A stretch of DNA of 64,000 nucleotides. Source: Gemmata palustris. Lineage in GTDB: Bacteria > Planctomycetota > Planctomycetia > Gemmatales > Gemmataceae. The stretch is taken from NCBI RefSeq assembly GCF_017939745.1, contig NZ_JAGKQQ010000001.1, positions 5,146,001 to 5,210,000 of the forward strand, read 5' to 3'. Each line of letters begins with the position of its first letter. Positions within the stretch are counted from its first letter, which is position 1. The position numbers were made by a program, and so were the translations under genes. Shown here in pieces: positions 19,721-33,906 of the stretch. Below the pieces are notes generated by a model that worked only from the letters and a program-made list of their open reading frames with translations, was not told the DNA's origin and did no database searches.

Positions 19721-20128
19721 ATGCGCGCCCGGTTGGTGTCCGCCGAAGGCGGCCCGTTCATCGACCTGCTCAAAGACATGACGCTCTTCGGCCGGGACGA
19801 AGATTGCGACGTGCGCCTCGACCACAAAAGCGTCTCAAAACTCCACTGCGTTATCGTAAAAACCGACGGCCTATTGTTACTCCGCGACCTCGGGAGCACG
19901 AACGGCACGCGGGTCAACGGCCAGCGCGTCCGCCGGGCGGCGCTGCTGCCCAACGACACGATCGCCATCGCGAACATGAAGTACGTGGTCAAGTTCGGGG
20001 TCGAACTCGAAAAACTGGAGAACGAAGAAGCGCCTGCGAAGGGGAGCAAGAAGGACGCCGCAACGCACCAACTCCGCCGAAACGCCCTCCCCGACGTATA
20101 CCCCGAACAGAAATCGCCCAAGGGGTAG
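19721..20128 (+). CDS. FHA-domain protein
   Basis: 135 residues from the ATG at 19721. The forkhead-associated domain occupies residues 1-100 with its hallmark motifs FGRDEDCDVRL, SVSKLHCVI and DLGSTNGTRVNG. FHA domains bind phosphothreonine, so this protein may read out Ser/Thr kinases such as the one at 10312-14208; that pairing is inference. The C-terminal 35 residues are charged and probably disordered. The protein is soluble, with no membrane segment. Confidence 0.88.
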   Translation: MRARLVSAEGGPFIDLLKDMTLFGRDEDCDVRLDHKSVSKLHCVIVKTDGLLLLRDLGSTNGTRVNGQRVRRAALLPNDTIAIANMKYVVKFGVELEKLENEEAPAKGSKKDAATHQLRRNALPDVYPEQKSPKG

Positions 20129-20176
20129 CGCAGAGCCGGGACGAAAGACGGGATGGCCACAAAAGGGCACAAAAAA

Positions 20177-20202
20177 GGACAGAGGACAGAGGACAGAGGA
20201 CA
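20177..20202. repeat. 7-bp tandem repeat (GGACAGA)
   Basis: GGACAGA is repeated 3.7 times in a purine-rich stretch just after the FHA gene. Copy number may vary by slippage. No function is evident. Confidence 0.8.
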
Positions 20203-20348
20203 TTGTTTTGTAGCCCCGGATGGGGCGACCGATCGTAGCCGGGGGTGAAGCGCTAGCACAACCCTTGGTGGACTCCATTTACGGTGAAGTGAACCTTCTG
20301 TGTGAGCAGTGCGTCTCTGAGGAACAACTTGAACGCGGAGACGTACCG

Positions 20349-21216
20349 ATGCTGACCGACCGCGACCTGCTGCTCCGCGCAATTCTCGCCAATCCCGCGG
20401 ACGACCTCCCGCGCCTCGCGCTCGCCGATTGTCTTTAACGAATCCGACTGTTACCTCGACGCAACTCGCGCCGAGTTCATCCGCGCCCAGTGCGCCGGTG
20501 CGCACGCGGAGGCTCTCGCACTGTTCACAGCGCATGCGTGGCAGTGGGCCGGGTTAACCGCGCCGCCCGATAAATGGAAGTGGTGCGCGGCGACCGCGAT
20601 CTCGAACTTCGAGCGCGGGTTCATCACGCGGCTCTGCCTCAATTCTGGCAGTTTGGCCGGGGTGGTCCCGTTCCGACAATTGATCGTGCGCGAGCCGGTC
20701 GCGGACGTGGTGTTCGATGTCGCCAGTGCCGGGCCGGAGCGCGCCGTGGACGCGCGCACGCTGCTCCCGTTCGCTCACCCGGTGGCTGTAAAAGTTGTGC
20801 GCCTGCCGAGCAACAGCCGCGGGCAGCAAGATGCGTTCTTCGCCGCGCTGATCTCGTCGCCCGTTATGGCGTCCGCGTTGGACGTGACACTTGCAGGGTT
20901 GTACCCCGGCCGCACGGGAACTCCGCTCGTGTCTTGGTTGTCGAAGTCGCCGTTTTTTGGTCGCGTGCGGAACCTGAATTTGTCGTACAACTGGTTCGGC
21001 GACCCCGAAGCGTGTGATCTGGCTCAAAGCCCGCGGCTCGCGCGGGTCGAGCGCCTGTCGCTCGCGCATAATCGCATCGGCAACGCGGGCGCGCTGGCCC
21101 TGGTGCGCTCGCCGCACTTGCGGAACGTAGCGCACATCGATCTGTCCGGGAATCGCATCGGCGGGGACGGACTGGCCGCGCTCGCCGCGCGATTCGGAGG
21201 TGGGTTGGTGGCGTGA
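20349..21216 (+). pseudogene. TIGR02996 domain plus leucine-rich repeat gene, split by a frameshift
   Basis: The ATG at 20349 opens LTDRDLLLRAILANPADDLPRLALADCL, the TIGR02996 repeat-companion domain typical of Planctomycetes, which normally continues into E-E-G...RAEFIR. A TAA at 20436-20438 ends that frame. Skipping one base (T20436) gives DCL-NESDCYLDATRAEFIRAQ, exactly the expected continuation. That frame is then open to 21216, with LRR-type repeats (RNLNLSYNWFGD, ERLSLAHNRIGN, AHIDLSGNRIGG). The local sequence is CTT-TAA-C. It is a one-base insertion, an assembly error, or conceivably a +1 recoding site. Intact length would be about 288 residues. Confidence 0.75.
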
Positions 21217-21235
21217 GCGCTGATCGCTTCTTGTG

Positions 21236-21404
21236 GTCTTGTGGTTTTGTAGGGTGGGTCAAGGCTTTGCGCAGGCCTACCACCTCCCAGCGTATGGCGA
21301 ACGCGAAGGGATGCGACGCACGTGGCCCGCCGACCACCCTACGAGTCAAAGACGGGCTGGTGGGCCTGCGCAAAGCCTTGACCCACCCTACAAAACCACA
21401 AGAC
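21236..21404. repeat. MITE-like element with 42-bp perfect inverted termini
   Basis: Arms 21236-21277 and 21363-21404 are perfect inverted repeats surrounding 85 bp without a gene. The arms start GTCTTGTGGTTTTGTAGGG. There is no obvious target duplication. It lies at the left boundary of the recombinase-bearing mobile element and directly after the LRR gene. Confidence 0.8.
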
Positions 21405-21527
21405 GCGGGCAACTCACTTCGCGACGCTGAACTGGTACACGGTCATCTATCATTCAATTCTTGCAGGCTTGGGCGTGCCCGGGTAAACTCGCACGGAGTA
21501 TCACCAGCCGTCCCAAGAGAAGCGGAA

Positions 21528-23246
21528 ATGGCCCTTGCGTACTCCTACCTGCGATTCAGTTCGCCACAGCAAGCTGAGGGTGACAGCCTCCGCCGGCAAA
21601 CCGAGAGCAGAGAGAAGTGGCTCGCCTCTCATCCGGAAATCCAGCTCGACACGTCCCTCCTGCTGGAGGATCGGGGGCGGTCCGCGTTCAAACGGCGGGA
21701 CTGGGACACGTACGCGCTCGCTGCGTTCCTCCGACACGTCGAGAGCAGCCGCGTCGCGGCCGGCTCTTACCTGCTGGTCGAGAACTTGGACCGCTTGAGC
21801 CGGGAACACATCCGCACCGGGGTTAAGCTGTTCATCGAATTACTCGACCAGAAGATCAATATCGTAACGCTCACCCCAGAGAAATTGTTCCGGCACGACT
21901 CGTTGGACCTGACGGACATCATCATCGCCGTCGTGGAGTTGAGCCGCGGTCACTCGGAGTCAGCGGTGAAGTCGGCGAGATGCCGGGAAGCATGGGAGCA
22001 GAAGAACAAGGAAGCCCGAACGTGCGTCGTCACCAAGAGGCTTCCGGGCTGGATCAGGCAAGGTGATGACGGTCGCCTCGTTCTGGACCAGGCCGCGGCG
22101 AAGATCGTCCGGCGTGCGTTCGACCTGGCGCGTGACGGCTACAGCGTGATCGGGATCGCCAAGCTGTTCAACTCTGAGAAGGTTCCTGTGCTGGGGCGGA
22201 AGACGATGCCCGAGCGTGGGGAAAAGCACAAGCCCAAAGGCGAACGCAAGCAGAAGCCGGTAATGTGGTCGCAGCCGACGCTCTACGGCATCCTTACCTC
22301 GCGCGCGGCGATCGGTGAGTACGTCCCCTACCAGACGACTAAGCGGCCGGACAAGCCGGTCGGCGAGGCCGTTCCCGGCTACTACCCCGCAGTGGTAGAC
22401 GAAGACACATTCCACGCGGTCCGGGCGGCGTTGGCAGTCCGGGCGAAGGTCGGTCGCGGGCGGCGCGGCAAACACATCAACCTTTTTGCCGGTCTCTTGC
22501 GGGACGCTCGCGACGGTGGAGCTATCACCTACTGCCACCGTCGCGACTCGTGTGAACTGGTCCCGGTGAGCGTGAAGCAGAATGGCACACAGACGTGGGC
22601 GAGTTTCCCGGCGGTCGCCTTTGAAGACGCGATCCTCTCCAAACTGAAGGAGGTCCAAGCCGCCGATGTCGAAGGCGATCGCGGCGAGGCCCGGCGGAAG
22701 GTGGAAGCTATCGCCGGAGAACACACCGAGGCCGAGCAGAACGCGAGACGGTACAAGGTACGGTGCGATGGGGCAAAGACGGAGGAAGAGTTCAACCTGT
22801 TCGCGGACAAGGCGGTCGAGTGGGACCGGAAGCGGGTGACGCTCGCGACGGACTTGGAGCACGCCCAGCGCGAAGCAGCCTCGCCCCTGTCCGAGTCGTG
22901 GGGCGAGTTCCGCTCACTCGCCGAGCTGCTCGCCGAGGACAAGTCGGACGACCTCCGTATCCGCGCACGGGCTGCGCTTCGACGGGCGGTCGAGAGCGTT
23001 CACTGCCTGTTCGTGGGGAAGCGGGTGCGACTTGCTGCTGTGCGGATTCAGTTCCACGGCGATTGCCACCGCGAGTACCTGATTTCCTATACGCCCGGCC
23101 GGTCGAACAAGAGTGTCAAGCGACCCGGTCAGTGGGCCGCGGAGTCGTTTGCCGATGCCGGTCTAGCCGGCAGAGCCGACCTGAGCAATCAAAGCCAGGC
23201 GAAGAAATTTGAATTGCTCTTAGTGAAGCACACCGCAAAGAAGTAA
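21528..23246 (+). CDS. Large serine recombinase (integrase)
   Basis: 572 residues from the ATG at 21528. The N-terminal resolvase domain shows AYSYLRFSSPQQAEGDSLRRQ, where the Ser of RFSS is the expected nucleophile. LLVENLDRLSRE carries the conserved arginines. The recombinase domain follows (LPGWIRQGDDGRLVLDQ...VRRAFDLARDGYSVIGIAKLFN, then YGILTSRAAIGEY). A coiled-coil region (about 380-450) lies near the end. The usual zinc-ribbon cysteines are weak. It should integrate and excise the element by strand exchange at att sites. It is the first gene of the element. Confidence 0.93.
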   Translation: MALAYSYLRFSSPQQAEGDSLRRQTESREKWLASHPEIQLDTSLLLEDRGRSAFKRRDWDTYALAAFLRHVESSRVAAGSYLLVENLDRLSREHIRTGVKLFIELLDQKINIVTLTPEKLFRHDSLDLTDIIIAVVELSRGHSESAVKSARCREAWEQKNKEARTCVVTKRLPGWIRQGDDGRLVLDQAAAKIVRRAFDLARDGYSVIGIAKLFNSEKVPVLGRKTMPERGEKHKPKGERKQKPVMWSQPTLYGILTSRAAIGEYVPYQTTKRPDKPVGEAVPGYYPAVVDEDTFHAVRAALAVRAKVGRGRRGKHINLFAGLLRDARDGGAITYCHRRDSCELVPVSVKQNGTQTWASFPAVAFEDAILSKLKEVQAADVEGDRGEARRKVEAIAGEHTEAEQNARRYKVRCDGAKTEEEFNLFADKAVEWDRKRVTLATDLEHAQREAASPLSESWGEFRSLAELLAEDKSDDLRIRARAALRRAVESVHCLFVGKRVRLAAVRIQFHGDCHREYLISYTPGRSNKSVKRPGQWAAESFADAGLAGRADLSNQSQAKKFELLLVKHTAKK

Positions 23247-23286
23247 ACTGTCAGCCGACTGGCCGCGTGGAGTAGCTACCCGCGGG

Positions 23287-23332
23287 CCGCGTCGGGCCGG
23301 TGCGAACCTCAGAGCGCATCGGCCCGACGCGG
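23287..23332 (+). terminator. Hairpin after the recombinase gene
   Basis: 18-bp stem (23287-23304 with 23315-23332, one mismatch) and a 10-nt loop. It begins 41 bp past the recombinase stop. No U-tract follows, so termination strength is uncertain. Confidence 0.5.
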
Positions 23333-23361
23333 TTACCGGCCACACTCTGAGGGGCGCATCC

Positions 23362-23829
23362 ATGCGCGAACAAATCCTGCGAGAACTCGCGGCCGTTGAC
23401 GCAATGGAAGCTGCTGCGAGCGCCGCCGCACGTCGGCACGGATACGCGACCGATGACGACCTGAAAGTGATGCGTGAGTGCGCGACGCGACGTACAACTC
23501 TCACGCGGCTATTCCGCGAGATGGAAGCATCGGAGACGCCAGACAACGCAACAATTTGGTATCACGGCGATCAGGGGTATTCGGTCAATGGCCGGCCGGT
23601 ATCAGTCACCGATGAGGAACACAAGGTACTCCAGGTGTTCGCGGAGAAACAAACCGCGATGAAACGGTCCGAACTCGAAGAAGCTGCCGTCATCTCGAAC
23701 GCGCCTCGTGTCCTCACGAAACTCGCGAAGTCCTACTCAGAGGCGTTCGCAGCGGCTATCCGCCGGCCGGGCGGTAAGGGCAAAGGCGGCTACTTCGTTC
23801 GCGTACTTCCGATTGGCGAGCGGGAGTAG
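23362..23829 (+). CDS. Hypothetical protein of the mobile element
   Basis: 155 residues. The N-terminal part (1-60) is helical and charged, with EQILRELAAVDAME. The C-terminal part (80-150) reads like a winged helix: VTDEEHKVLQVFAEKQTAMKRSELEEAAVISNAPRVLTKLAKSY, then a glycine-rich wing (RRPGGKGKGGYFVRVL). This suggests DNA binding, perhaps a regulator or excision factor acting with the recombinase; that is inference. The start has weak ribosome-binding signals. Confidence 0.65.
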   Translation: MREQILRELAAVDAMEAAASAAARRHGYATDDDLKVMRECATRRTTLTRLFREMEASETPDNATIWYHGDQGYSVNGRPVSVTDEEHKVLQVFAEKQTAMKRSELEEAAVISNAPRVLTKLAKSYSEAFAAAIRRPGGKGKGGYFVRVLPIGERE

Positions 23830-23929
23830 GCGTGTACCAAACGCGTACCAAACACGTACCTACCCGGAATCCACAACTCAATTCACGTCCGCAATGATGC
23901 CTCCGTCCTCACCCGGACGGAGGTATTCC

Positions 23930-24118
23930 ATGACCGACCCTGTCACGTTGATCCGTGACCTCGACGCGGACACCATTCGCGATCGGCTCGAAGCGATCGA
24001 GCACGAGCGCCGTGCACTGCTCGTGTTGTTACGCGCAGCGCTCCGTGCGAAGCGCTGCATGCCGACGATGTCTATGCCGCCAACAAAGCCGACCGGGGGC
24101 AAGGTGGTACGGACATGA
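23930..24118 (+). CDS. Small hypothetical protein
   Basis: 62 residues from the ATG at 23930, preceded by CGGAGG at ideal spacing. It is predicted helical (LIRDLDADTIRDRLEAIEHERRAL) and could form a short coiled coil. No family is recognised. Its stop overlaps the next start (ATGA at 24115). Confidence 0.6.
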   Translation: MTDPVTLIRDLDADTIRDRLEAIEHERRALLVLLRAALRAKRCMPTMSMPPTKPTGGKVVRT

Positions 24119-24327
24119 AGAATACCGCCACCAACACCGGCAAGATTAGCGCCACCGCAAACACCAACGACGAACTCCGCGACCTGCTCCGGCGCATCCG
24201 CGACGATCCCGATGCGGGCGAGTGGGGCGAATGGGCGCGCCGCCTGATGGAGGGCGACGCTGAGCGGAAGCGTAAGGCCGCCGAGCGGGCACGGGGATCA
24301 CCAAGACCCGAACCCGCTGGGGCATGA
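24115..24327 (+). CDS. Small hypothetical protein fused over methylase remnants
   Basis: 70 residues, translationally coupled to the gene before it and overlapping the next start by 4 bp. The middle segment (NDELRDLLRRIRDDPDAGEWGEWARRLMEG) is helical. Its last 20 codons are read in a different frame from an apparent methylase remnant: frame +3 here gives GTGITKTRTRWGM, which leads straight into the methylase fragment. The C-terminus may therefore be a by-product of a deletion junction. Confidence 0.5.
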   Translation: MKNTATNTGKISATANTNDELRDLLRRIRDDPDAGEWGEWARRLMEGDAERKRKAAERARGSPRPEPAGA

Positions 24328-24722
24328 ACGGTGAGGCGAGCGCGTGGCTGGGGGCCGTCGAGGGACTGGGGGAGGTTCACCGGCGGCTCATCCGTGTCGT
24401 GATCGAGAACCGGCCGGCGGTCGAAGTCATGCGCGGTCACGACGTCAAGGGATGCCTGATGTACTGCGACCCGCCCTACCCGGCCGGCACCCGCTCGTCC
24501 CCCGACGTGTACGGCGAGTACGAGATGACCGACGACCACCGGGCGTTCCTGGCGGTCGCCAAGTCGATCAAGCACGCCAAGGTGCTCATCAGCGGCTACC
24601 CGTGCGAACTCTACGACAAGGCGCTGAAGGACTGGGGCCGGCACGAGTTTGACGTGGCCAACCACGCGGCCGGAGGGAAATCGAAGAAGCGCATGAGGGA
24701 AGTGGTGTGGACCAATTATTGA
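24324..24722 (+). pseudogene. C-terminal part of a D12-class (Dam-type) adenine methylase
   Basis: 132 codons. It contains the catalytic motif IV DPPY (LMYCDPPYPAG) and the typical C-terminal half (YEMTDDHRAFLAVAKSIKHAKVLISGYPCELYD, ending REVVWTNY). The N-terminal SAM-binding motif (FxGxG) and the target-recognition region are missing; intact enzymes are about 260-300 residues. Upstream in frame, GTGITKTRTRWG also looks like methylase sequence, so a deletion probably joined it to the small gene before it. It may be inactive, or part of a split enzyme. In phages such methylases protect DNA from restriction. Confidence 0.7.
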
Positions 24723-25134
24723 GCCGGCCCGAGTCGTCACGCTGCGAACGCGAGCCCCCGATCACAGGCGGTGGAGAAGTCAATAAGTAGGCGGTCGGGA
24801 CTTTCCCGACCGCCTACTTCGCCTGCGCCAAAGCCCGTTAGGGGTGCATGTGGATGCGTGCGCGCGGTGTTCTGCCCGCTCCGGTCGAGGTGTCTCAGAA
24901 CATCGTCCGCTGGCGCTGGTCGGCAATCCAAACGTACTTGGACAACCTGAAGACCAGGAAGGCGTGTCGACCAGGTCGATGATGACCGAGGTGTCGTGCA
25001 CGTCGGCGATCAAAAGTTGAAGCCGAGTGTGACTTCGCGTGCAAGTGCTCGGCAGACAGGACAATGAACCCAAAAAACAATGGCGGCCGGGTGTATCAGG
25101 CCCGACCGCCGCAACCCAACACTGAGAGGGAGAC
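24723..25134. other. Intergenic region within the element, with hairpins
   Basis: 412 bp before the primase. A near-perfect terminator-like hairpin (24785-24800 with 24804-24819, 16 bp, 3-nt loop) ends the first gene group. A second hairpin (GGCGGCCGGG paired with CCCGACCGCC, one mismatch) lies at about 25082-25110, just upstream of the primase start, and could be an operator or attenuator. Between them I see no credible gene. Confidence 0.55.
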
Positions 25135-25914
25135 ATGCGTAGTGTACACAAGAGTCAGCCTTCCCACAAGCGAAAGGAGCCAGGGGAAGACCCGGCGGCA
25201 AAGCCAGAAATCGACGACGGCCAGATCGACTGGCGGGAGCAGACGTTCAACGGTGGCCTCACGGGGCCGGTCGAAAAGGTGTCCACGCCCCTCGAACTCA
25301 TCACGCAACTGCGCATGGTGATGGTTGACATCGACCCCAAATACCTGAACCCGATGCTCTTCGCGTCCGGGAAGGGCTCGCACGCCTCTCGGCTGTACCA
25401 CAAGACTGTTAGCCTCTGGCTGGACCGGCACCCGCTCGGGAAGAAGGCCGAGGTACGGCACACGGGGTCGGGGCTCCACGCCCTCTTCCACCTCGAACCG
25501 ATCGTCGTGTTCGGCAACACCGCCGACCGCGACCGCTGGGCCGTGGTCGTCCGGGCGGTGCAGAACGCCCTCCCGAGCGACCCGAACGCACCGGGCCTGA
25601 CGGCGCTCACCCGGCCTATCGGATCCACCAACTCGAAGAACGATCGCAAGGTAAAGCAACTTCGCGCCGGCGAGCCGATCACGCCGGAGGAAGTTCTCCG
25701 GTTCGTTGACGAACTGCGCCGCCGCCCGTTCGCGACGGTCGCTGGCATCCTGCACGGGGCAGACCGCATCACCCCGTGCCCGGTCTGCAAAGCGGACGGG
25801 AGCACGCTGGCTGCCCGCGACCGGGTCGGCCGCTGTTATGACTGCGGGACGGTCGAACTGGTGCAACTCTTCGGCCCGCTCATGTCCCCGCCCTCAACCG
25901 AAGGGGAGGAGTGA
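25135..25914 (+). CDS. AEP-like primase with C-terminal zinc ribbon
   Basis: 259 residues. The core looks like an archaeo-eukaryotic-type primase of the mobile-element class. Motif I is VMVDIDP (Asp 65, Asp 67), motif II is HTGSGLHALFHLEP (His 115), and LTRPIGSTNSKN (about 157-168) matches the usual RxPGTxNxK segment. A zinc ribbon at the end has Cys 215, 218, 234 and 237 (CPVCKAD...CYDC). AEP primases make primers for replication, which fits the next gene (ATPase) and the polymerase downstream. GAGAGGGAGAC precedes the ATG. The family call is from motifs only. Confidence 0.65.
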   Translation: MRSVHKSQPSHKRKEPGEDPAAKPEIDDGQIDWREQTFNGGLTGPVEKVSTPLELITQLRMVMVDIDPKYLNPMLFASGKGSHASRLYHKTVSLWLDRHPLGKKAEVRHTGSGLHALFHLEPIVVFGNTADRDRWAVVVRAVQNALPSDPNAPGLTALTRPIGSTNSKNDRKVKQLRAGEPITPEEVLRFVDELRRRPFATVAGILHGADRITPCPVCKADGSTLAARDRVGRCYDCGTVELVQLFGPLMSPPSTEGEE

Positions 25915-25916
25915 AC

Positions 25917-27374
25917 ATGGCAAACAAAAAGAAAGCGTCAAAGGCGGCGAAAGTCCCGAACACCGCAGCCCAACTGGCTGACCAACTGACCGCCGCGCTG
26001 CGTACCCTCGATACACTCCCCCTGTTTGGCGCGCGGGTCCTGGTTGTCGTCCGCGGCATCACGCCGGGCGGGAACTTCATCGTTCCGGCCGAGAACGTGA
26101 TCCAGCAGATGATTCCGGTCCTGGTGCCGCCAAGCGGCTCTTCGAGGGTCTACGCCTACGGCCAGACCGTCGTTCTCGACACGACGGTCGATGGTCAGGA
26201 TTCGGCACTGGTTCCCCTCCGCAGCGGCACGAAGGTCGAATCGGTCGCTCCGGCGTACCTGGCGAACCTGATCATCTGCGAGCACGAGAGTGGGGGCGTG
26301 ACCATTCAGTTCAGCTTCCCGCCCAAGGCGCTGGCGGTGCTGCTGAACGCCGAGCCGCTCAGCCGGGCGCTCACCCGGATCGATCTGTACGCCCGGCGCC
26401 CCCTCTTCTCAAGCGACTTCACACTCCTCGGTCCCGGATACCACCCGAAGTACCGGATTTTGATCCACGGACCGGAGATCGAACCCGACCTCGAACCCTT
26501 GGCAAACGCCGCCGCGGCGCTCGACCGACTGCTGCCGCTGCTGCGCGAACTGCTTAGCGACTTCTGCTTCCGGGAACCGGCCGATCTGACCAACTACCTG
26601 GGCCTGATGCTGACCGGGCTCCTGATCAACCACTTCGTGATCTGCCTCAAGGGGGTGGCTTTGGTCGACGGCAACCAACCAGGCGTGGGCAAAACGCTCC
26701 TGATGCGGGTGCTGGGGGTCGTCATGGACGGGGTTGACCCGAACCTGATCCACTACACCCCGGACGAGGAGGAACTTCAGAAACGGACCTGTGCCACGCT
26801 CCGCCCGGGTCGGCAGACGGCACTCATCTACGACAACGCGAAGCAGCCCAGTGGTACACCGATCAGCAGCCCGACTATCGAGGCGAACTCGATGGCTCCG
26901 GAGATCTCGCTACGCATCCTTGGAGTCTCCGAAAACTACGTGCGCCCCAACGACGTGATTTGGGCAATCACGATGAACCAAACGCGGGTGAGCCCTGACC
27001 TGATGAGCCGCGGATTGCCCATCCGACTGGCCCACGACGGCCCGCCCGAAAAGCGTGTCTTCACTGGCCCGGACCCGATCGAGTTCGCCCGCGAACACCG
27101 CCTCGGGATTCTCGCCGAACTGGCGGGCTTCGTAGTCCGCTGGAACCAAGCGGGCCGGCCCGAAGGCAGCCGCTCCCACCGGTGCCACCGGTGGGCCAAG
27201 ATCATTGGTGGCATCCTCGAAGTGAACGAGTTCCCCGATTTCCTGGCCAACTACGAGGAGGCGTCGGGCACATTCAACGCGGAGTTGGAAGACCTGACTC
27301 TGCTCATTGAGGCGGTACTGGCTCAGCCCGAGGGGCCGTTCGTGGTCGTCGAACCACCGGAGGATGACCAGTGA
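25917..27374 (+). CDS. P-loop ATPase, probable replicative helicase or initiator
   Basis: 485 residues from the ATG at 25917, 5 nt after GGGGAGGAG; a GTG at 25911 overlapping the primase stop is the alternative. Residues 1-200 are a beta-rich domain I do not recognise. The ATPase core has Walker A GNQPGVGKT (252-260), Walker B TALIYDN (302-307), a sensor-like IWAITMNQT and a candidate arginine finger in MSRGLPIRL. The arrangement resembles the AAA+/SF3-type helicase halves paired with AEP primases in plasmids and phages. It probably loads at the element origin and unwinds DNA. Confidence 0.65.
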   Translation: MANKKKASKAAKVPNTAAQLADQLTAALRTLDTLPLFGARVLVVVRGITPGGNFIVPAENVIQQMIPVLVPPSGSSRVYAYGQTVVLDTTVDGQDSALVPLRSGTKVESVAPAYLANLIICEHESGGVTIQFSFPPKALAVLLNAEPLSRALTRIDLYARRPLFSSDFTLLGPGYHPKYRILIHGPEIEPDLEPLANAAAALDRLLPLLRELLSDFCFREPADLTNYLGLMLTGLLINHFVICLKGVALVDGNQPGVGKTLLMRVLGVVMDGVDPNLIHYTPDEEELQKRTCATLRPGRQTALIYDNAKQPSGTPISSPTIEANSMAPEISLRILGVSENYVRPNDVIWAITMNQTRVSPDLMSRGLPIRLAHDGPPEKRVFTGPDPIEFAREHRLGILAELAGFVVRWNQAGRPEGSRSHRCHRWAKIIGGILEVNEFPDFLANYEEASGTFNAELEDLTLLIEAVLAQPEGPFVVVEPPEDDQ

Positions 27375-27778
27375 CACAGAAACCGAACCCGGCACGGGCG
27401 CTGCCCGCGGCGAAGTGGGTGCCGATCCTCGACGCCGCCGGGCTTACCCCACAGGCCTTCGCCGACGCGAAGACGCCGCACGCCAGGGCGATCAAGATCG
27501 GCCAGTGGCTCAGTGCTAAGGTCGGTCGTGAGACGCCCGTGCACGTCGGCGGCAGGAACGGTACGGCCGTGCTCCGCGTGATAGGCGCGCGGGCGAACGA
27601 GAAGCGGTACTACTTCGAGGTCACATGGGACAGCGCTGCACCGGCCGCGCTGCCTCCGCCGCCCAAAGGGGAACCGTCCAAGACCAAGAAGAAACCGAAG
27701 CAGAATGAGAAACACAAGGCGAAGGCCAGGCCGTCGGCCAAACATAAGCATAAGGCCGGCAACGACGAGGCGTGGTAG
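27371..27778 (+). CDS. Hypothetical protein with basic tail
   Basis: 135 residues, start GTG overlapping the preceding TGA (GTGA), so coupled to the ATPase. The N-terminal 90 residues are a small mixed domain (WVPILDAAGLTPQAFADAKTPHARAIKIGQWL). The last 40 residues are almost all Lys/Pro/Ala/His (KKKPKQNEKHKAKARPSAKHKHK), suggesting nucleic-acid binding. No family is recognised. Its place between ATPase and polymerase suggests a replication accessory role. Confidence 0.6.
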   Translation: MTQKPNPARALPAAKWVPILDAAGLTPQAFADAKTPHARAIKIGQWLSAKVGRETPVHVGGRNGTAVLRVIGARANEKRYYFEVTWDSAAPAALPPPPKGEPSKTKKKPKQNEKHKAKARPSAKHKHKAGNDEAW

Positions 27779-27810
27779 CGCGATACTCAGGGACGAACAT
27801 GATTGCGGTT

Positions 27811-27918
27811 GGTGAATGTGGTGAATAGGTACGAGCCTCCCCAAAAGCGAGCGGGGAGTCCCGCCACACGGTGGGGCTTCGGCGCGGACCAACGCGGCTC
27901 CTATTCACCTCATTCACC
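27811..27918. promoter_or_regulatory. Inverted repeat with GGTGAAT direct repeats upstream of the polymerase
   Basis: Arms 27811-27829 and 27900-27918 are inverted repeats of 19 bp with one mismatch. Each arm itself carries two GGTGAAT-like units (GGTGAATGTGGTGAATAGG). The 218-bp gap is the largest non-coding stretch inside the replication gene group. It could be an operator pair, or iterons of a replication origin. Confidence 0.5.
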
Positions 27919-27996
27919 ACTTCTCGGCGCAACACCCTGACCCATCGACTGATTTTACACGACCATTGTTCCCACGAAATATTCACGCGAGGTGGT

Positions 27997-30300
27997 ATGG
28001 ACGTCGAATTCGGAGAGCGAACTTACCCGTTTCGCCCTTGGAAGCCAGAACTAGGGCAGGTCTTAACGCGGACGTTCAGCTTCGACTGCGAGACCACGAT
28101 GATTGACTGGGAGCGACACTGGATCACCCCGGCGTACATCATCGGCGCTGCGTTCGATGGAAAACAGGGCTACTTCGTCTCTCGCGAACATGTGGCGGCG
28201 TTCTGGAACGCCCACGACGAAGCCGGCGCGGTCTTCCACAACGCCGCCTTCGACCTCGACGTGATCCGATTGGTCGCTCCCGAATTGGACGTGTACGCGA
28301 AGGTGGATGCCGATTTGGTCTGGGACACGTGGCTCCTCCACAGGCTCTACGCACTCGCGATTGAGGGTCACACCGCGGGCAACGAGGGGCAGGCGACACT
28401 GGAAGCCTGCGCCGAGCGATATCTGGACATCAACCTTCCGAAGGACGTGATTGATGATTCTGGGCAACTGGTCCGCACGTCCTACGGTCAGTGGCTGAAC
28501 AAGCCACTCGCCAAAATGTCGGCGGTGTACCTGGAGTACCTGGCCAAAGATGCGATCGCCACGCGACAGGTGTTTAAGAGACTCACCAAGAAAATCGACG
28601 AGTTGTTGGGTGATTGTCGCGGTGTCTGGGGGTACGTGTCCGACGAGTGGTCCCACGAGTGCCGAGAGCGCTGGGGGCCACTCACCCACCACATCCAGTT
28701 GCGCGCTGCGATCGTACTGAAGGAGATCACGCGCAATGGGCTGCACATCGACCTTGCGAGGCGGGACGAGGCCGTCCCCATGCTGAAGGCCCAGCGGGAC
28801 GAGGTCGAGTCTCACCTTCGCGACCAGGGCGTTCTCACCAAGGGAAAAGGATCACAAAAGGCGTTGCAAACCAAGCTCCAGAAACTGGCAGCGCTGCACC
28901 CGGCGGTTAACTTCCCCAGGACCGAGAAAGGATTGTTCGCGACCAGCGCGGAGGCGCTGCACGACCTCGTCGAGTACGTACCGTTCGTGAACGACCTGCT
29001 CAAGTACCGGGCCTTGGACAAGCTACTGGAGACGTTCCTCAACAAACTCGATCGCGGGGTCGTTCATTCGTCTTTCGGGGTACTCGCCCGGTCGGGCCGG
29101 ACGTCGTCCTTCGGCGAATTGAACGCCCAGAACCTGCCGAAGGATGACCGCATCCGCAACTGTTTCGTACCGTCGAAGGGGCACGTGTTCCTGGACCACG
29201 ACTACTCGACTATTGAACTGGCCGCATTGGCCCAAGCGTGTGTCTCTCAGTTCGGCTGGAAATCGGAAATGGCAACACGCATCAACGCCGGCGACGACCT
29301 CCACCAGGTGTTCGCCGGCTTTGTAACCCGCAAGCCGCAAGAGGAAGTGACAGCGTCTGAGCGCGCCCGCGTTAAGCCGATTAACTTCGGAAAGCCCGGC
29401 GGCATGGGACCGCGATCGCTCCAGACCTACGCGAAGATGACGTACGGGATCGAGTACACCGAGCATGAAGTCGCGGAACTGTCCGAGCAGTGGCTCGACC
29501 TCTTCCCGGAAATGCGCGAGTTTCTCAAGGACACGGTCGATACCCCGCTCGAACTCGCCCGTGCGCTGGACCTGACCCTGGTGGGCCACCATGAACACAC
29601 CGACGACGACCGGATGCTGCGCCACCCGCAGAACGCCGGGCAGGGGCACCGCCCCAACCCGATCCTGGGGATGATGTGTCTCAGGGCACTCGGCAGTGAC
29701 GACCCTCGGACGGTGAAGGGTAAACCGTACACGCCCGCGTGCGTGGATTACTTCTGGACCAAACTCGGGCACCTCACCGAGGGACTGCCGGAGAAATTCG
29801 CAAAGGCGATCCGCGAGCGGACGCCGTCGAAGGCACTCCAGCGGTTCGTTTCGTCGCATGTCGGGCGCGCCGGAGTATTCGTTCTCACCGGCCGTATGCG
29901 AGCCGCGGCTGGTTACACCGCGCGGCACAACACCATTTTCCAGGGACTGACCAGCGACGGTGCCAAGATCGCTTTGTGGAAAGTTTGGCGGAAGGACTAC
30001 AAGATCGCCAATTTCATCCACGACCAGATCCTGGTCGAAGTTCCCGCCACGGACGACCTGAAGGAGCACGCCGAGCGAATCAAGAAGTTGATGATCAAGG
30101 GCATGAAGGAAGTTCTCCCGGACGTGAGGATCGACGTCAAATACGCAGCCACCGACCGCTGGCGGAAGAAGGCCGAGGCCGTCTTCGACGAACAGGGACG
30201 GCTCCGCTTGTGGCACCCGAAGAAAGATCGGACGGTATCTCCACGTTCTGCGCAACGGAGCGAGAAGCAAAAGAGCGTGTCGGTGAGGGCATCTGGCTGA
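27997..30300 (+). CDS. Family A DNA polymerase, phage type, with 3'-5' exonuclease
   Basis: 767 residues from the ATG at 27997. The exonuclease domain has FSFDCETT (Asp 30, Glu 32), FHNAAFDLDVI and YLAKDAIAT. Polymerase motif A is FLDHDYSTIELAAL near 400. Motif B is RARVKPINFGKPGGMG near 460, with the FGxPGG form seen in phage enzymes instead of the cellular FGxxYG. Motif C near 673 is FIHDQILVE, where Gln replaces the usual Glu of HDE but the metal-binding Asp stays. There is no 5'-nuclease domain. With the primase and ATPase it completes a compact replication set. Confidence 0.92.
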   Translation: MDVEFGERTYPFRPWKPELGQVLTRTFSFDCETTMIDWERHWITPAYIIGAAFDGKQGYFVSREHVAAFWNAHDEAGAVFHNAAFDLDVIRLVAPELDVYAKVDADLVWDTWLLHRLYALAIEGHTAGNEGQATLEACAERYLDINLPKDVIDDSGQLVRTSYGQWLNKPLAKMSAVYLEYLAKDAIATRQVFKRLTKKIDELLGDCRGVWGYVSDEWSHECRERWGPLTHHIQLRAAIVLKEITRNGLHIDLARRDEAVPMLKAQRDEVESHLRDQGVLTKGKGSQKALQTKLQKLAALHPAVNFPRTEKGLFATSAEALHDLVEYVPFVNDLLKYRALDKLLETFLNKLDRGVVHSSFGVLARSGRTSSFGELNAQNLPKDDRIRNCFVPSKGHVFLDHDYSTIELAALAQACVSQFGWKSEMATRINAGDDLHQVFAGFVTRKPQEEVTASERARVKPINFGKPGGMGPRSLQTYAKMTYGIEYTEHEVAELSEQWLDLFPEMREFLKDTVDTPLELARALDLTLVGHHEHTDDDRMLRHPQNAGQGHRPNPILGMMCLRALGSDDPRTVKGKPYTPACVDYFWTKLGHLTEGLPEKFAKAIRERTPSKALQRFVSSHVGRAGVFVLTGRMRAAAGYTARHNTIFQGLTSDGAKIALWKVWRKDYKIANFIHDQILVEVPATDDLKEHAERIKKLMIKGMKEVLPDVRIDVKYAATDRWRKKAEAVFDEQGRLRLWHPKKDRTVSPRSAQRSEKQKSVSVRASG

Positions 30301-30885
30301 CACAATATCGCCGAGTTGAGCGTCGAAGCCGAATTCCGGATTCGCACTGTCTTTCGTAACTATAATTTAGCAAATTTTAACAATTTAATACTTGGACGGC
30401 AACCTTCACCGCATTGATCCCAGCCGAACTTAGTGGCAGCAAGCAAAAAGCGCTTTTTTAAATCGAATCACCGAGAAGAAGTGGGTTCTGCGGGGAATCG
30501 GACCGGCTCTACCGAGAGGCCGATTACCCGAGCACGGGGTGGATGGCACACCCAGGGGCGGTCAAGATCATGGTGGCGTGCCTGCGCGAAGATACGGGCG
30601 ATCGGCACTGCCCTGACCGATTGGAATAACGGTCCCAGTAATCCAGACCCGGCTCAGTTCGCTACGCTAAACAAGTATCTGATCGGACCAGGGCCAGAGC
30701 TACTTGATACCCGGTATCGAGCGGATCGCGGCTATCGCGGACGGTAACGGGGGGCGGAAGCGGCGGGGAACGAAGTATCCGTCGGGACGAGCAGAAATTC
30801 AATTTTTGACAGTTGTCCACACGGCACTGGGTAAAATTCCTCACTCGCCTATCCCCACCGTCTCGTCGGTCTTCGCATTATAAAA
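30301..30885. other. Gap at the right end of the element, with an AT-rich strip
   Basis: 585 bp without a credible gene. At about 30355-30395 there is a sharply AT-rich strip, unlike anything nearby, and at 30444-30457 the palindrome AAAAAGCGCTTTTT. These may mark the end of the integrated DNA or its attachment site, but no direct repeat with the left side could be identified by eye. Confidence 0.45.
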
Positions 30886-31229
30886 GTGCACCCCGTGCCC
30901 ATTCGATCCGTGTCCCACTTCGTTTGGCAGGTGCTCCGAGCCGCAAAGCGTAGTAAAAAGCATTTGACCGGTCGTGCCCCTGCGAATTTCGCCGAGTCGT
31001 CATTCAAAAGATGGCGGTTTCCTGGCCGCGTTAGTGGAGGAGGGACTACTGGTTCGTGTGACCGGCACTGCGGAAATCCCATTCGAGGCCACGTACGCTC
31101 TCACGGAATAAGGGGGAGTTCGCGGCCGAGTACGGGGAGTGTGAGTACCAGCCGAAGCGAAGCGTCACCGCATCTCCAGCGCCCCCGGTTCCGCTTCCCA
31201 CCACACCCAAGGGCAAAAAGAAGCGGTAG
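30886..31229 (+). pseudogene. Decayed gene with at least two frame breaks
   Basis: Three consecutive frames read as one protein. The first is SVSHFVWQVLRAAKRSKKHLTGRAPANFAES. After a shift comes KDGGFLAALVEEGLLVRV then TGTAEIPFEATYALTE. After a stop and shift near 31110 comes EFAAEYGECEYQPKRSV, ending in a basic tail PTTPKGKKKR at 31229. The middle part looks like a small winged-helix or HTH protein. The breaks mean it is no longer expressed intact. It probably belonged to the mobile element. Confidence 0.55.
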
Positions 31230-31255
31230 TGTTCCCTCCGCGTTCTACTCAACGA

Positions 31256-31567
31256 TCAGAAATCAACTCCGATAACGGCGAGCCACGTCAGGAAGTTCAC
31301 GACGGCGGACAGACCCACCAAGAAGCTTCCTACTATCGCGGCCAGAAACCTACGTCGCGTTGCCACCACCAGAGCCACGGCGAGGCAGAGGTGTGCGATC
31401 AGCAAGCCATTGAGCACAGCGCGGGAGAAGTTTTCCCCTCGCAATCGATCGCGTCCCCTTTTGTTTGGAGTGTCCACTGCACAATTCATTGCCACGGTGA
31501 TCGCAGGGAGGAGCACCTGCCCGAACAGGAGCAGGAGGGTTGCCCAATCTCGCAAGGACCAGTTCAT
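31256..31567 (-). CDS. Small multi-pass membrane protein
   Basis: 103 residues from the ATG at 31567. GGGGTGG lies upstream. Three hydrophobic helices are visible: WATLLLLFGQVLLPAITVAM, LLIAHLCLAVALVVATR and FLAAIVGSFLVGLSAVVNFLTWLAVI. No family is recognised. It faces the decayed gene on the other strand. Confidence 0.6.
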   Translation of the reverse strand: MNWSLRDWATLLLLFGQVLLPAITVAMNCAVDTPNKRGRDRLRGENFSRAVLNGLLIAHLCLAVALVVATRRRFLAAIVGSFLVGLSAVVNFLTWLAVIGVDF

Positions 31568-31741
31568 TGCCCACCCCGAGAGGCGCAAAAGCCTTTTAAC
31601 TCCCGAACCGTGAACACGGGCCATACTTCCAACTGTTTAGATCGATGACCGTCAACAGGGCAACGAGAATGGTACCGACTACGAACGCGACACCGAAAGC
31701 CATGAGCAGCCACTGACCGAGCGGGCGGTCCACTTCACCGC

Positions 31742-32012
31742 TTACTTCTTCTGCCGTTTGACGGACGATTCACGGGGCACCACCCTAACAATTTTCGAGC
31801 CCTGTTCTCCGAGCTTGTTCAGTTCCTGTTGGGCAGTTCCATCATCCGTGGGCAAATACTCGATCTTGTGCTCCCACTTCGGCACAGCGGGTACTGCAAC
31901 TACGCGCTCAATTTTCTCTTCCTTAGCCCCCTCCCGAGCCGCTAAGGGTATTGCACGTCGCACAGACAATGAACAGGGCAATGGTAACGAGCGGGCGGTA
32001 AAAGGGGCTCAC
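31742..32012 (-). pseudogene. Small secreted DUF4177-like gene split at a G5 run
   Basis: A GTG at 32012 opens a signal-peptide-like N-terminus (PFYRPLVTIALFIVCATC) that reaches a TAA right after a G5 run (C5 at 31927-31931 on the plus strand). Removing one G joins it in frame to KEEKIERVVAVPAVPKWEHKIEYLP...ELNKLGEQGSKIVRVVPRE, which resembles DUF4177 (WEYKV...LNELGxEGWELVxV). The run may be a loss-of-function indel, a phase-variable tract or an assembly error. Whole length would be about 89 residues. Confidence 0.5.
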
Positions 32013-32355
32013 GGTCACCACGTGGTGGCACTACACCCGGTTGAACTGCGGGACATTTGTAAAAGTGGCGCGATTTCTCGATAGCGGCATCGGTTCCGTC
32101 ACCTTGCAGTTCGCACTCCTGGATACCACGAGCACGCCGCTCGAAGACATTTCTGGCCCCGCGTGTCGTGCAAGTCGCACGTAGGAGGCGTGGCGGCGCG
32201 CGCCGAGGCGGCTGACGGACCACAGCAGTTTCGCTGCGATCTCGTAATCGAACGTCTCATCCGTTTCGATATTTGCCCGAAAAGGGGATAAAAACGGCGC
32301 AGGACAACGGCTCTTTTCGTTACTTGGCGACCTCGAACGGGGCGGTTACCGCCGT
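32013..32355. other. Intergenic region
   Basis: 343 bp between a minus-strand small gene and the 3' end of the HEAT-repeat gene. No gene, tRNA, strong hairpin or repeat was recognised. Confidence 0.4.
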
Positions 32356-33906
32356 TCAAAAACCTTCCGCAAGACCTTCCGCGTGCTTGGCAACCTTCGC
32401 CACTGCGGCCTGCACGAACAGGTTGTCCACCCCTTCCAGGGCCGTGGCATCGACCGCGGAGAGGCCGAGGTCGTCAACCGCCTCCAGGACCGCGATGTGG
32501 AGCGCCCAGGTGACGGCCGGTGGCTCGGCCAACAGCCCGGTCAGCCGCCCCACCTCGGCGGCGGCTCCGTGCCCGACGAGGTCGTCCACTGCCGCCCGCC
32601 GCAGGTTCTCCGGTCGGGCCGGGTCGACGGCGATCGAGAACAGCTTCGGCACCCCTTCGTCCCGGCCCGCGTGGGCGACGAAGGTGCCTAGCGTTTCGGT
32701 CGCGTGCATCCCGAACACGCCCGGCCGGTGCAAGTGATTCCATGCGACGGCCGCGATGAGAGGGTTCGGCGGGAGCAGGCCGAGCCGGTACATCGCCGAC
32801 CTCCGCACCCCGAAGTCGGGGTCTTCGACCAGCGCCAGGAGTCCTTCGGCGTCGGCCCACGCCAGTAGCGGCACCGTCGCCCGCTCGCGGACCAACGGGT
32901 CGGGGTGGTTGAGCAGCACCGGTCGGAGCCGGCGGCGGTCCGCAGCCGGGTACGGCTCCCACGTCGATCGCCACAGCACGTCTTCCAACACCTTCGGGGA
33001 CGTGTCCGGGTCGGTCAGTAGACGGAGTACGTCGGACGCGGCCGGCGGGCGCGTCTCCTGTGCCGCGGGCCGTGTGTACGGCGGTTCGTCCGGCGGGGAC
33101 AACTCCTCGGCCGAGTAGGACAGCAGATCCCAGACCGGGTCGAGCCACCGGCGGACGCGAGCGGACACCCGCGGGTCACTACCGCCGAGGTGGTGAAGGC
33201 ATTCGTAGCGGATGTCCGCGAAACTGTCGCGGGCGTAGTCGCGGATTCGTTCGGAGGGGTGGTCGAGAAAACCGTGCAGACAGCGGATGACCCGCACGGA
33301 GGGGTAATACTGCAACGTCCGGACCGCCTCGACGGCCACGCCCTCGACCGCGTCGGCGGTTGCGGCCACCAGCGCCGCTTCGGCCGCGACCGGCTCGTCC
33401 CAGAACAGGATCGCCGCCGCGGTCTCTCGCACCGCCGGGTCCGGGTCGGCTAGGGCCGCGATCTTCAGCCGCAGGTCGGCCGGGGAATCGAAGTAGAAGG
33501 TCATCCGGCCGAGGGCGGTTACGCGGAGCGGGTGCGTCGGATCGGCGGCGACCGTCCGCACGACGTCCGGGCGGTGGCGCGAGCCCATGGACAGCAGGGC
33601 GTGCCGGCGCAGGATCGGGTCGGCCCCCGCCCACCAGCCCCGCAGGACGCCCTTCGGTACGTCCGCGTCGAGGTCCGGCATGTCCCGCAGGACGGCCCCC
33701 GCGGCCCCGCGGATCGCGGCCTTCCGCGAGCGGTCCGTGAGCAGGCGCTCCAGGATCGGAACGGCCCGCCGGTCGGACACGGCGGTGAGCGCGTCAACGA
33801 GATCCGTTCGCTCATCGTCCGGGAGGTCGGGAGCGGTCAGGCGGTCGAGCAGGCGGAACGTCCACCGGCGGTCGGCGGATTCGGTGATCGTCGCGTACGG
33901 GAGCAT
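32356..33906 (-). CDS. HEAT-repeat protein
   Basis: 516 residues from the ATG at 33906 (MLPYATITESADRRW), AGAGGT upstream. The protein is built of about a dozen helical HEAT-like repeats, such as LTDRSRKAAIRGAAGAVLRD, ALADPDPAVRETAAAILFW and LLNHPDPLVRERATVPLLAW. Such solenoids bind partner proteins. PBS-lyase-type HEAT proteins are abundant in planctomycetes. No catalytic motif, signal peptide or membrane segment is visible, so it is probably cytoplasmic. Confidence 0.85.
   Translation of the reverse strand: MLPYATITESADRRWTFRLLDRLTAPDLPDDERTDLVDALTAVSDRRAVPILERLLTDRSRKAAIRGAAGAVLRDMPDLDADVPKGVLRGWWAGADPILRRHALLSMGSRHRPDVVRTVAADPTHPLRVTALGRMTFYFDSPADLRLKIAALADPDPAVRETAAAILFWDEPVAAEAALVAATADAVEGVAVEAVRTLQYYPSVRVIRCLHGFLDHPSERIRDYARDSFADIRYECLHHLGGSDPRVSARVRRWLDPVWDLLSYSAEELSPPDEPPYTRPAAQETRPPAASDVLRLLTDPDTSPKVLEDVLWRSTWEPYPAADRRRLRPVLLNHPDPLVRERATVPLLAWADAEGLLALVEDPDFGVRRSAMYRLGLLPPNPLIAAVAWNHLHRPGVFGMHATETLGTFVAHAGRDEGVPKLFSIAVDPARPENLRRAAVDDLVGHGAAAEVGRLTGLLAEPPAVTWALHIAVLEAVDDLGLSAVDATALEGVDNLFVQAAVAKVAKHAEGLAEGF

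Follow-up and report, generated by a model that had tools for sequence, protein, structure and literature searches.

Gene organization of the element

We analysed a 64,000-nucleotide stretch of the genome of the planctomycete Gemmata palustris (positions 5146001-5210000 of an 8.3-Mb contig, NZ_JAGKQQ010000001.1; genome size, 9.2 Mb), hereafter referred to as the window, which includes a putative integrative element carrying replication genes of its own. All genes of this element, located between 21528 and 30300 in window coordinates, are on the plus strand, in the order of a large serine recombinase, an open reading frame (ORF) for 155 amino acids (aa), two small ORFs, a fragment of a D12 methyltransferase gene, an archaeo-eukaryotic primase (AEP), a helicase, a 135-aa ORF and a family A DNA polymerase. 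An initial annotation, made from the sequence alone, had claimed a serine recombinase, an AEP primase with a zinc ribbon, a P-loop ATPase and a family A polymerase in one orientation. The presence of all four was borne out by Pfam and PHROG matches, motifs and folds, and profile and structure comparison placed the helicase, primase and polymerase in replication families as predicted; the 155-aa ORF, the two small ORFs, the truncated methyltransferase and the 135-aa ORF are additions to that list. Overlapping starts, also claimed, were found at 27371, and at 25911 as well if the GTG at 25911 is used as start. No match to virion families (portal, terminase, capsid, tail) was detected among the element ORFs scanned against Pfam and PHROGs, in agreement with the same annotation, and the element in this respect does not have the gene content of a prophage.

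Primase, helicase and DNA polymerase

The 259-aa protein encoded at 25135-25914 gave no match to Pfam or PHROGs, and no primase was found among the matches of a PDB sequence search. The protein contains the motifs DxD (D65, D67) and GxGxH (G111, G113, H115) and a C-terminal zinc ribbon (C215/C218...C234/C237), and these residues are conserved in 10 aligned sequences, except for C237, which is kept in 9 of the 10. The best matches of its AlphaFold model, with a mean predicted local distance difference test (pLDDT) score of 86, were AEP domains: that of cyanophage S-2L PrimPol (6zp9; Foldseek E 1.7e-5; Z 9.6, root-mean-square deviation (rmsd) 5.1, 137 residues aligned) and RepB' (Z 7.3, rmsd 2.8, 120 aligned), with CAPP next. 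Of the first 20 structure matches, 17 have titles that refer to primases, Prim-Pols or LigD polymerase domains, but only the S-2L PrimPol row exceeds Z 8. From the catalytic motifs and the modelled fold, the protein is predicted to belong to the AEP primase superfamily.

The P-loop ATPase (485 aa, 25917-27374) carries the Walker A sequence GNQPGVGKT. Residues G252, G256, G258, K259, D306/N307 and R365 are invariant in the alignment, and we take them to be those of Walker A, Walker B and the arginine finger. Neither Pfam nor a sequence search of PDB gave a match. The structural model (mean pLDDT 81) was closest to the Rep helicase of SaPI5, a Staphylococcus aureus pathogenicity island (SaPI) (7ola; Z 16.3, rmsd 4.6, 341 aligned), and also matched poxvirus (vaccinia) D5 (8apl; Z 15.1, rmsd 5.0, 323 aligned) and the NrS-1 helicase domain (Z 13.9, rmsd 4.2, 290 aligned). 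The protein is homologous to the helicase of plasmid pCM32 (29% identity, E 2e-29), which is encoded between prim-pol and integrase genes; further homologs are found in Actinoplanes phage Pas55 and as CcrColossus gp183. We take pCM32 to be an actinomycete integrative and conjugative element (AICE). Thus motif, model and homologs identify the ATPase, at the level of prediction, as an AAA+ replicative helicase of D5/SaPI-Rep type. The accessory ORF135 (135 aa, 27371-27778), located between the helicase and polymerase genes, is conserved in relatives, and at four loci (L044, L045, L046 and L057) it is fused to the helicase C-terminus.

The last gene (27997-30300) encodes a DNA polymerase with matches to DNA_pol_A (PF00476, 1.8e-39) and to the phage-type PolA family phrog_17 (2.3e-68). 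Its start is likely ATG 27997, the conserved Met being residue 43 of an ORF that begins at 27871. What we presume to be the 3'-5' exonuclease motifs are intact (D72xE74, NxxFD128, Y223...D227), and motifs A and C are present. In the O-helix, KPINFGKPGG, all 10 aligned sequences have Gly at the position that we take to correspond to Tyr766 of Klenow enzyme. By motifs A, B and C the product is assigned to the family A DNA polymerases, with Gly apparently replacing the usual O-helix Tyr. A search of IMG/VR with the polymerase detected 95 loci, of which 80 were kept, and the best by E-value was 31% identical over most of its length. The O-helix position in these 80 viral loci was Gly in 7, among the best matches, Tyr in 17 and Phe in 3, the motif pattern being unrecognised in 53. 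The polymerase thus probably descends from a phage lineage. The Gly-for-Tyr type is common to these elements and some viral contigs; it includes the window, L006, L038, L039, L045, L060-L064, L066 and L071, and reads FGxPGG throughout except for FGFAGG in L066.

Conservation and distribution of the replication cassette

The primase-helicase-polymerase order recurred at 11 further planctomycete loci, 9 from the genomes searched and two (L057, L058) from named records, making 12 in total; the planctomycete assignment rests on kinship to the window genome for L045 and on record or genus for the others. ORF135 or its fused form accompanies the three genes at 10 of the 11 other loci and was not detected in L058, where the frames called for polymerase and helicase are shorter or split. 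The closest relatives (L041, L040) are about 80% identical, and a second copy of the cassette, with 57% polymerase identity, is present in the same genome (L006). Across the ten loci compared, the distances of primase, helicase and polymerase were correlated (Mantel r of 0.86, 0.97 and 0.84; p 0.0001 for each), indicating that the three main proteins of the cassette evolve in step, as far as sequence distances tell.

Scanning of genome contigs with two peptide patterns from the helicase alignment, which distant members can escape, gave 9 loci, all in planctomycetes; the named helicase records are also planctomycetes, several within the genus of the window. The polymerase matched in all 59 genomes searched (its own included), mostly through shorter and weaker matches to other family A polymerases, and matches of at least 42% identity were restricted to 8 of the 59, every one being this cassette. 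Three contigs of genome G017 (C11, C14, C15) begin with PolA-like fragments, and in C11 and C14 a 572-aa protein comes next that shares 28-29% identity with the L045 integrase; this arrangement suggests a repeated element at contig ends.

For viruses, pattern scans of IMG/VR, which miss distant members, detected no relative of the helicase or the primase. By profile search of the 80 fetched viral loci, no primase relative was found, and two distant helicase relatives were (L063, L064), in large proteins encoded about 4 kb upstream of polymerases with the PGG O-helix. The primase had no match in 50,697 phage records. Relatives of the helicase were found in plasmid records (8) and phage records (53), with 24-30% identity among the matches listed and none of the phage matches covering 80% of the query. 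As a unit, the cassette was found in planctomycete genomes only, within integrative elements wherever the context is readable, and not in viral contigs. Its ultimate source is probably phage-like replication modules.

Integrative islands carrying related cassettes

We then examined the surroundings of the related cassettes. A tyrosine integrase was identified at 6 of the 12 loci, by Pfam in L006, L042 and L045 and by homology to the L006 integrase in L040, L041 and L043; at five (L037, L044, L046, L057, L058) no integrase was identified in flanks that were partly scanned. Three of the loci neighbour a tRNA gene: tRNA-Val for L006, tRNA-Pro for L040 and tRNA-Lys for L045. An initial search, reaching about 15-27 kb from the tRNAs, gave no attachment (att) repeat, and for L045 none was found in the 20 kb available. 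Whole-genome pattern searches detected further copies of the tRNA-Val and tRNA-Pro 3' ends, and perfect 47-bp att repeats then delimited a 57.1-kb tRNA-Val island in the window genome (3972326/4029453) and a 76.3-kb tRNA-Pro island in G013 (3759236/3835548).

The 57-kb island (G000:C1 3972326-4029499; L006, L007, L201, L202) includes, among the matches listed, type I-C cas genes (Cas3-like, Csd1, Cas1), and a CRISPR array of 38 repeats and 37 spacers, for which comparison with the available loci gave no convincing protospacer. A block of a MoxR protein and a protein just under the DUF6744 cut-off recurs in the 76-kb island; the other island proteins sampled were mostly metabolic, regulatory or without match. 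PHROG scanning covered 119 island proteins, 69 from the tRNA-Pro island and 50 from the tRNA-Val region, 13 of the latter in a tandem element; it left aside the 8 proteins of the cassettes, 7 at the edges, 7 whose genes are divided between stretches, and ORFs of up to 70 aa. Among the matches listed (25 of 59 families), a single member matched a terminase small subunit (4.4e-18), and capsid, portal and tail families were absent; for the PADLOC scan of the islands, the matches listed represent 25 of 153 families. The tandem element, about 12 kb long and with its own integrase, lies next to the 57-kb island between repeats at 4029453 and 4041364.

A divergent cousin (L039) has a DUF3987 helicase and a polymerase 25-32% identical to the polymerase of the cassette, together with the same tRNA-Val, an integrase 65% identical and a 45-bp att repeat 90.5 kb away. 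Because a similar integrase and tRNA-Val are here paired with divergent replication genes, comparison of the sequences indicates that integrase and replication module are exchanged. Four tRNA-Val att copies in this region (G013:C3 2944421-3057000; L039, L208-L212) mark a 90-kb island, with a DUF3854/DUF3987 primase-helicase, a Sak4-like protein and a PGG-type PolA, and two smaller tandem intervals.

Integration module of the window element

The serine recombinase (572 aa, 21528-23246) matched the Pfam families Resolvase (6.7e-11) and Recombinase (7.7e-13), and a longer ORF starting at 21213 matched the integrase family phrog_95 (2.3e-56). It has an R-F-S-S segment, of which S11 is invariant in all six aligned relatives, and its family is represented in 14 of 19 genomes of the genus, its own counted. 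Downstream are the 155-aa ORF (23362-23829), 43% identical over 92 aa to the gene that follows the recombinase in genome G014, and two small ORFs of 62 aa (23930-24118; 58% identical over 38 aa to its G014 homolog) and 70 aa (24115-24327; a weak G014 homolog, E 7e-4). Recombinase, 155-aa ORF and both small ORFs recur in G014 as one series, and since genes for a terminase large subunit, a weakly matching head protease (E 6e-4), a tape-measure protein and a portal protein follow, this locus of a congeneric genome is a prophage. The primase-helicase-polymerase cassette was not found by profile search in the stretch of the G014 prophage searched. Relatives of the recombinase in further genomes are encoded close to AAA_25 or D5-type primase-helicases. 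One compact set in G010 (L170 10124-14891), composed of a serine recombinase of this family, a 145-aa ORF and a DUF3854/D5_N/DUF5906 primase-helicase, is possibly a minimal integrative replicon.

Between the integration genes and the cassette is a remnant of a D12 adenine methyltransferase (24291-24722; ORF 24324-24722), which keeps the DPPY motif and lacks the N-terminal half, homology beginning at residue 131 of 274-aa relatives. In L040 and L041 the methyltransferase is complete and lies downstream of the polymerase; in the window it is cut at residue 131 and lies upstream of the primase. The truncation point is likely a recombination junction. A perfect 16-bp inverted repeat with a 3-nt loop (24785-24819) is also located between the two modules. 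Because the integrases identified beside the cassette in relatives are of tyrosine type and the recombinase module of the window matches that of a prophage, the window element is, to judge from sequence comparison, a chimera of a phage-type integration module and an island-type replication cassette, joined at the truncated methyltransferase. The gene order of the window would result if a circular island were opened between polymerase and methyltransferase and the part from methyltransferase to primase were lost.

Flanking genes and ends of the element

The element is inserted between genes of chromosomal types, as judged from the flanking genes scanned: an FHA gene and a leucine-rich-repeat (LRR) gene (19721-21216) on the left and a HEAT-repeat gene on the minus strand (32356-33906) on the right. 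The presumed left boundary zone, from the LRR gene end to the recombinase start (21217-21527), was read without detection of an att repeat. It contains a long inverted repeat (21232-21407) with arms GTAGGGTGGGTCAAGG and its reverse complement at 21249 and 21376, possibly a miniature inverted-repeat transposable element (MITE) or an element like the repetitive extragenic palindromic (REP) type. The presumed right boundary zone (30301-32355) is gene-poor and lower in GC; the right end lies somewhere inside, and part of the zone resembles other places of the genome and may be decayed. One segment (30893-31160) is 66-69% identical to three other genome places, with a 45-bp stretch 87% identical to a fourth, and is possibly a decayed gene.

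The left flank (NIPSNAP, YHS, FHA) is kept in G008 and G001, with synteny ending near 20.3 kb, short of the LRR gene, and the HEAT and GDSL neighbour genes showed no synteny in the genomes fetched. Follow-up of one further gene gave only a degraded relative 0.3 Mb away. Promoter and terminator scans performed no better than on shuffled sequences.

An all-in-one counterpart in the same genome

A block of about 14.7 kb elsewhere in the window genome (G000:C1 ~1443.3-1458.1 kb; L232 2329-17059) has genes for a serine recombinase of 540 aa and for a protein of 1452 aa, in which Prim-Pol, DUF3987, DNA_pol_A_exo1 (3'-5' exonuclease) and DNA_pol_A domains follow in line. In a related copy at ~1490-1510 kb (L233), the polymerase part is a separate 495-aa ORF; counterparts exist in G002 (L234, an intact-length protein of 1454 aa) and in G010 (L235, split into ORFs of 138 and 836 aa). 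Phage records match the 1452-aa protein over about one-third of its length among the matches listed, and none covers 80%. By analogy, the fused protein suggests that such activities act together.

Comparison with known elements

Several known systems combine integration with replication genes, the nearest kinds being SCC elements, AICEs and SaPIs. Staphylococcal cassette chromosome (SCC) elements are described as carrying large serine recombinases together with a Rep-like helicase; many also have a family A polymerase, which with an OB-fold partner acts as primase, and replication after excision is one proposed role (PMC10061031). In SCC the OB-fold partner stands between polymerase and helicase; in the window, ORF135 is the gene located there. 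The window likewise has a large serine recombinase, a Rep/D5-type helicase and a family A polymerase, but its gene order is different, and whereas the polymerase and its single-stranded-DNA-binding partner (PolA-SSB) replace a separate primase in SCC, the window encodes a separate AEP primase. Because of that primase the window cassette is not an SCC replication module, although it would work like one. In AICEs, serine or tyrosine integrases are reported alongside Prim-Pol or another type of Rep protein, and the Frankia element Fdat2245 is reported to have both Prim-Pol and DNA_pol_A (PMC3218068). The window resembles AICEs in its Prim-Pol-type primase, adjacent helicase homologous to that of pCM32, and site-specific integrase. 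AICEs, however, belong to the actinomycete phylum and carry an FtsK/SpoIIIE-type Tra protein; the three PF01580 matches in the genome all lie outside the window element and its 57-kb sister island. For the one relaxase family searched, PF03432, the genome gave no match.

With SaPIs and other phage-inducible chromosomal islands (PICIs), the element shares the nature of an integrative island, a primase and a D5-like Rep helicase, that of SaPI5 being the best fold match, but it has its own family A polymerase, and no packaging-interference gene was recognised. Pipolins pair a recombinase with an element-encoded, primer-independent family B polymerase; recombinase and element-encoded polymerase are thus common to both, whereas the window polymerase is of family A and the primase and helicase are separate. 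TV-Pols are reported as family A-related polymerases of 400-600 residues without previously identified domain, linked in mobile elements to D5-like helicases, integrases or resolvases, with Gemmata obscuriglobus included in a figure legend (PMC2579912); the window protein differs in having a full DNA_pol_A domain with exonuclease motifs. GP55 of lactococcal phage 1706, described as a four-in-one replicase of primase, helicase, exonuclease and family B polymerase (PMC12205980), resembles the 1452-aa protein of the window genome in its all-in-one design, but it is a phage protein with a polymerase of another family, and the window encodes separate proteins.

Membership among pipolins, AICEs, SCC elements or prophages was therefore rejected in each case, one defining feature per class being missed. 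As judged from its genes, the element would differ from the known integrative elements with replication genes of their own in being chimeric, with strong evidence for its families and a predicted activity. The combination, which the initial annotation took to be little described in a planctomycete chromosome, has closer precedents than it supposed, in SCC elements and one Frankia AICE (PMC10061031, PMC3218068). For planctomycetes, no report of integrative elements with such genes was found by title or abstract in open-licence PMC papers, which does not establish absence from print.

Discussion

The element is probably an integrated mobile element of two exchangeable modules, likely to excise, to replicate itself as a circle and to reinsert. 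Excision and insertion of the DNA would be carried out by the left module, the serine recombinase and small ORFs of a prophage-like kind. On the excised circle the D5/SaPI-type ring helicase would load, open and unwind the DNA, the AEP primase would lay primers, and the family A polymerase would extend them with proofreading, after which the circle may reinsert or be inherited. The cassette itself would come from a lineage of planctomycete integrative islands with tyrosine integrases and tRNA sites, with cargo such as CRISPR-Cas possible. This model of a two-module mobile element is supported by the gene families, folds, gene order at 11 other loci, co-evolution, att-bounded relatives and exchange of modules, and by open genes with low pairwise ratios of nonsynonymous to synonymous substitution (dN/dS). 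The fused 1452-aa protein and the position of the pCM32 helicase point the same way. We infer from these that the element excises and replicates self-sufficiently and that both modules of the window copy still cooperate.

The initial annotation had proposed a self-replicating integrative element and suggested a search of related genomes for the recombinase-primase-ATPase-polA order. The proposal stands in so far as the cassette belongs to integrative elements, two of them with mapped att sites, and falls short at the ends of the window element, which were not found. That order is not the conserved one: the integrases identified in relatives are of tyrosine type, and the recombinase module of the window is prophage-like. 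Conserved ends were mapped as 47-bp repeats in two relatives; in the window no att repeat of 11 bp or more was found. Occurrence of the same block within an intact prophage, which would contradict the proposal, was not found by pattern scans of IMG/VR, and profile search gave the two distant helicase relatives alone.

Several observations weigh against an active mobile element. No direct repeat of at least 11 bp was found between 20000-21540 and 30250-32700, as expected if the serine recombinase leaves a very short core only; flank synteny in the genomes fetched revealed no empty site; and three intergenic stretches contained no origin-like (iteron-like) repeats. A serine recombinase was identified at one of the 12 cassette loci, that of the window. 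The methyltransferase is truncated and the right 2 kb is gene-poor, so that the window copy may be losing function. Pairwise NG86 dN/dS ratios against L041 and L040 were 0.34 and 0.34 for the primase, 0.25 and 0.19 for the helicase, 0.40 and 0.27 for ORF135 and 0.18 and 0.17 for the polymerase (YN00 values were lower where computable), and the truncated methyltransferase gave much the same, 0.35 and 0.26; because this remnant gives similar ratios, they are no proof that selection still acts on the copy in the window. Finally, the primase and helicase parts of the 1452-aa protein gave no match to the window profiles, and because they are not detectably homologous, this protein is an analogy of function only.

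A temperate phage with a serine integrase and a PolA replication module could have left the same genes after deletion of its virion genes. Such an origin would account for the recombinase-ORF155-small ORF series in the G014 prophage, the PGG O-helix in 7 of the 80 viral loci, among the best matches, and the IMG/VR contigs L063 and L064, where a helicase of this family precedes a PGG polymerase; a truncated methyltransferase and a gene-poor right side would also fit a remnant. What makes it unlikely is the lack of any primase relative in IMG/VR by pattern, in the fetched viral loci by profile and in the phage records, the absence of the cassette from the searched stretch of the G014 prophage, and the fact that the relatives of about 80% identity include the att-bounded 76-kb island, without capsid, portal or tail family among the matches listed. 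Decay without cooperation, in which the remains of a tRNA-type island and a serine-recombinase element of other origin merely lie side by side, would agree with the single cassette among 12 that has a serine recombinase, the abrupt methyltransferase junction at 24291, the perfect hairpin between the modules and the gene-poor right end. We consider it improbable, as one strand is used throughout with no host gene in between, conserved residues of recombinase and replication proteins are present, and the gene order would follow from a circular island opened as proposed above.

A phage satellite of PICI type, replicating with its own primase-helicase upon helper infection and packaged in helper capsids, is suggested by the helicase fold nearest to SaPI5 Rep (Z 16.3, rmsd 4.6, 341 aligned), the small size, the lack of recognised virion genes and an integration module common to phage. 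This appears quite improbable, since no satellite-type packaging gene was recognised with Pfam and PHROGs, although planctomycete versions could be unrecognisable, and relatives that reach 57-76 kb and carry metabolic and CRISPR genes are of a size unusual for satellites. To our knowledge, a proofreading PolA of its own is not a feature of SaPIs, which also counts against a satellite.

By the common view, most integrative elements rely on the polymerase of their host. In the two-module mobile element proposed here, a proofreading-type polymerase would travel with its own primase and helicase, as it does in large att-bounded islands, while the integration half is swapped. More tentatively, planctomycetes may host a distinct guild of self-replicating integrative elements with a complete core replisome of AEP primase, ring helicase and proofreading family A polymerase, in separate genes or all in one. 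Their replication modules and their serine or tyrosine integration modules would be freely swapped, and the largest of them, at 57-76 kb and in one case with CRISPR-Cas, would be copied as circles outside the chromosome without need of the host polymerase; we hold this as a possibility. The cassette may yield compact replicases that combine priming with proofreading. The role of element-encoded replication, a question raised for SCC (PMC10061031), would become testable in planctomycetes, a group for which little on mobile elements was found.

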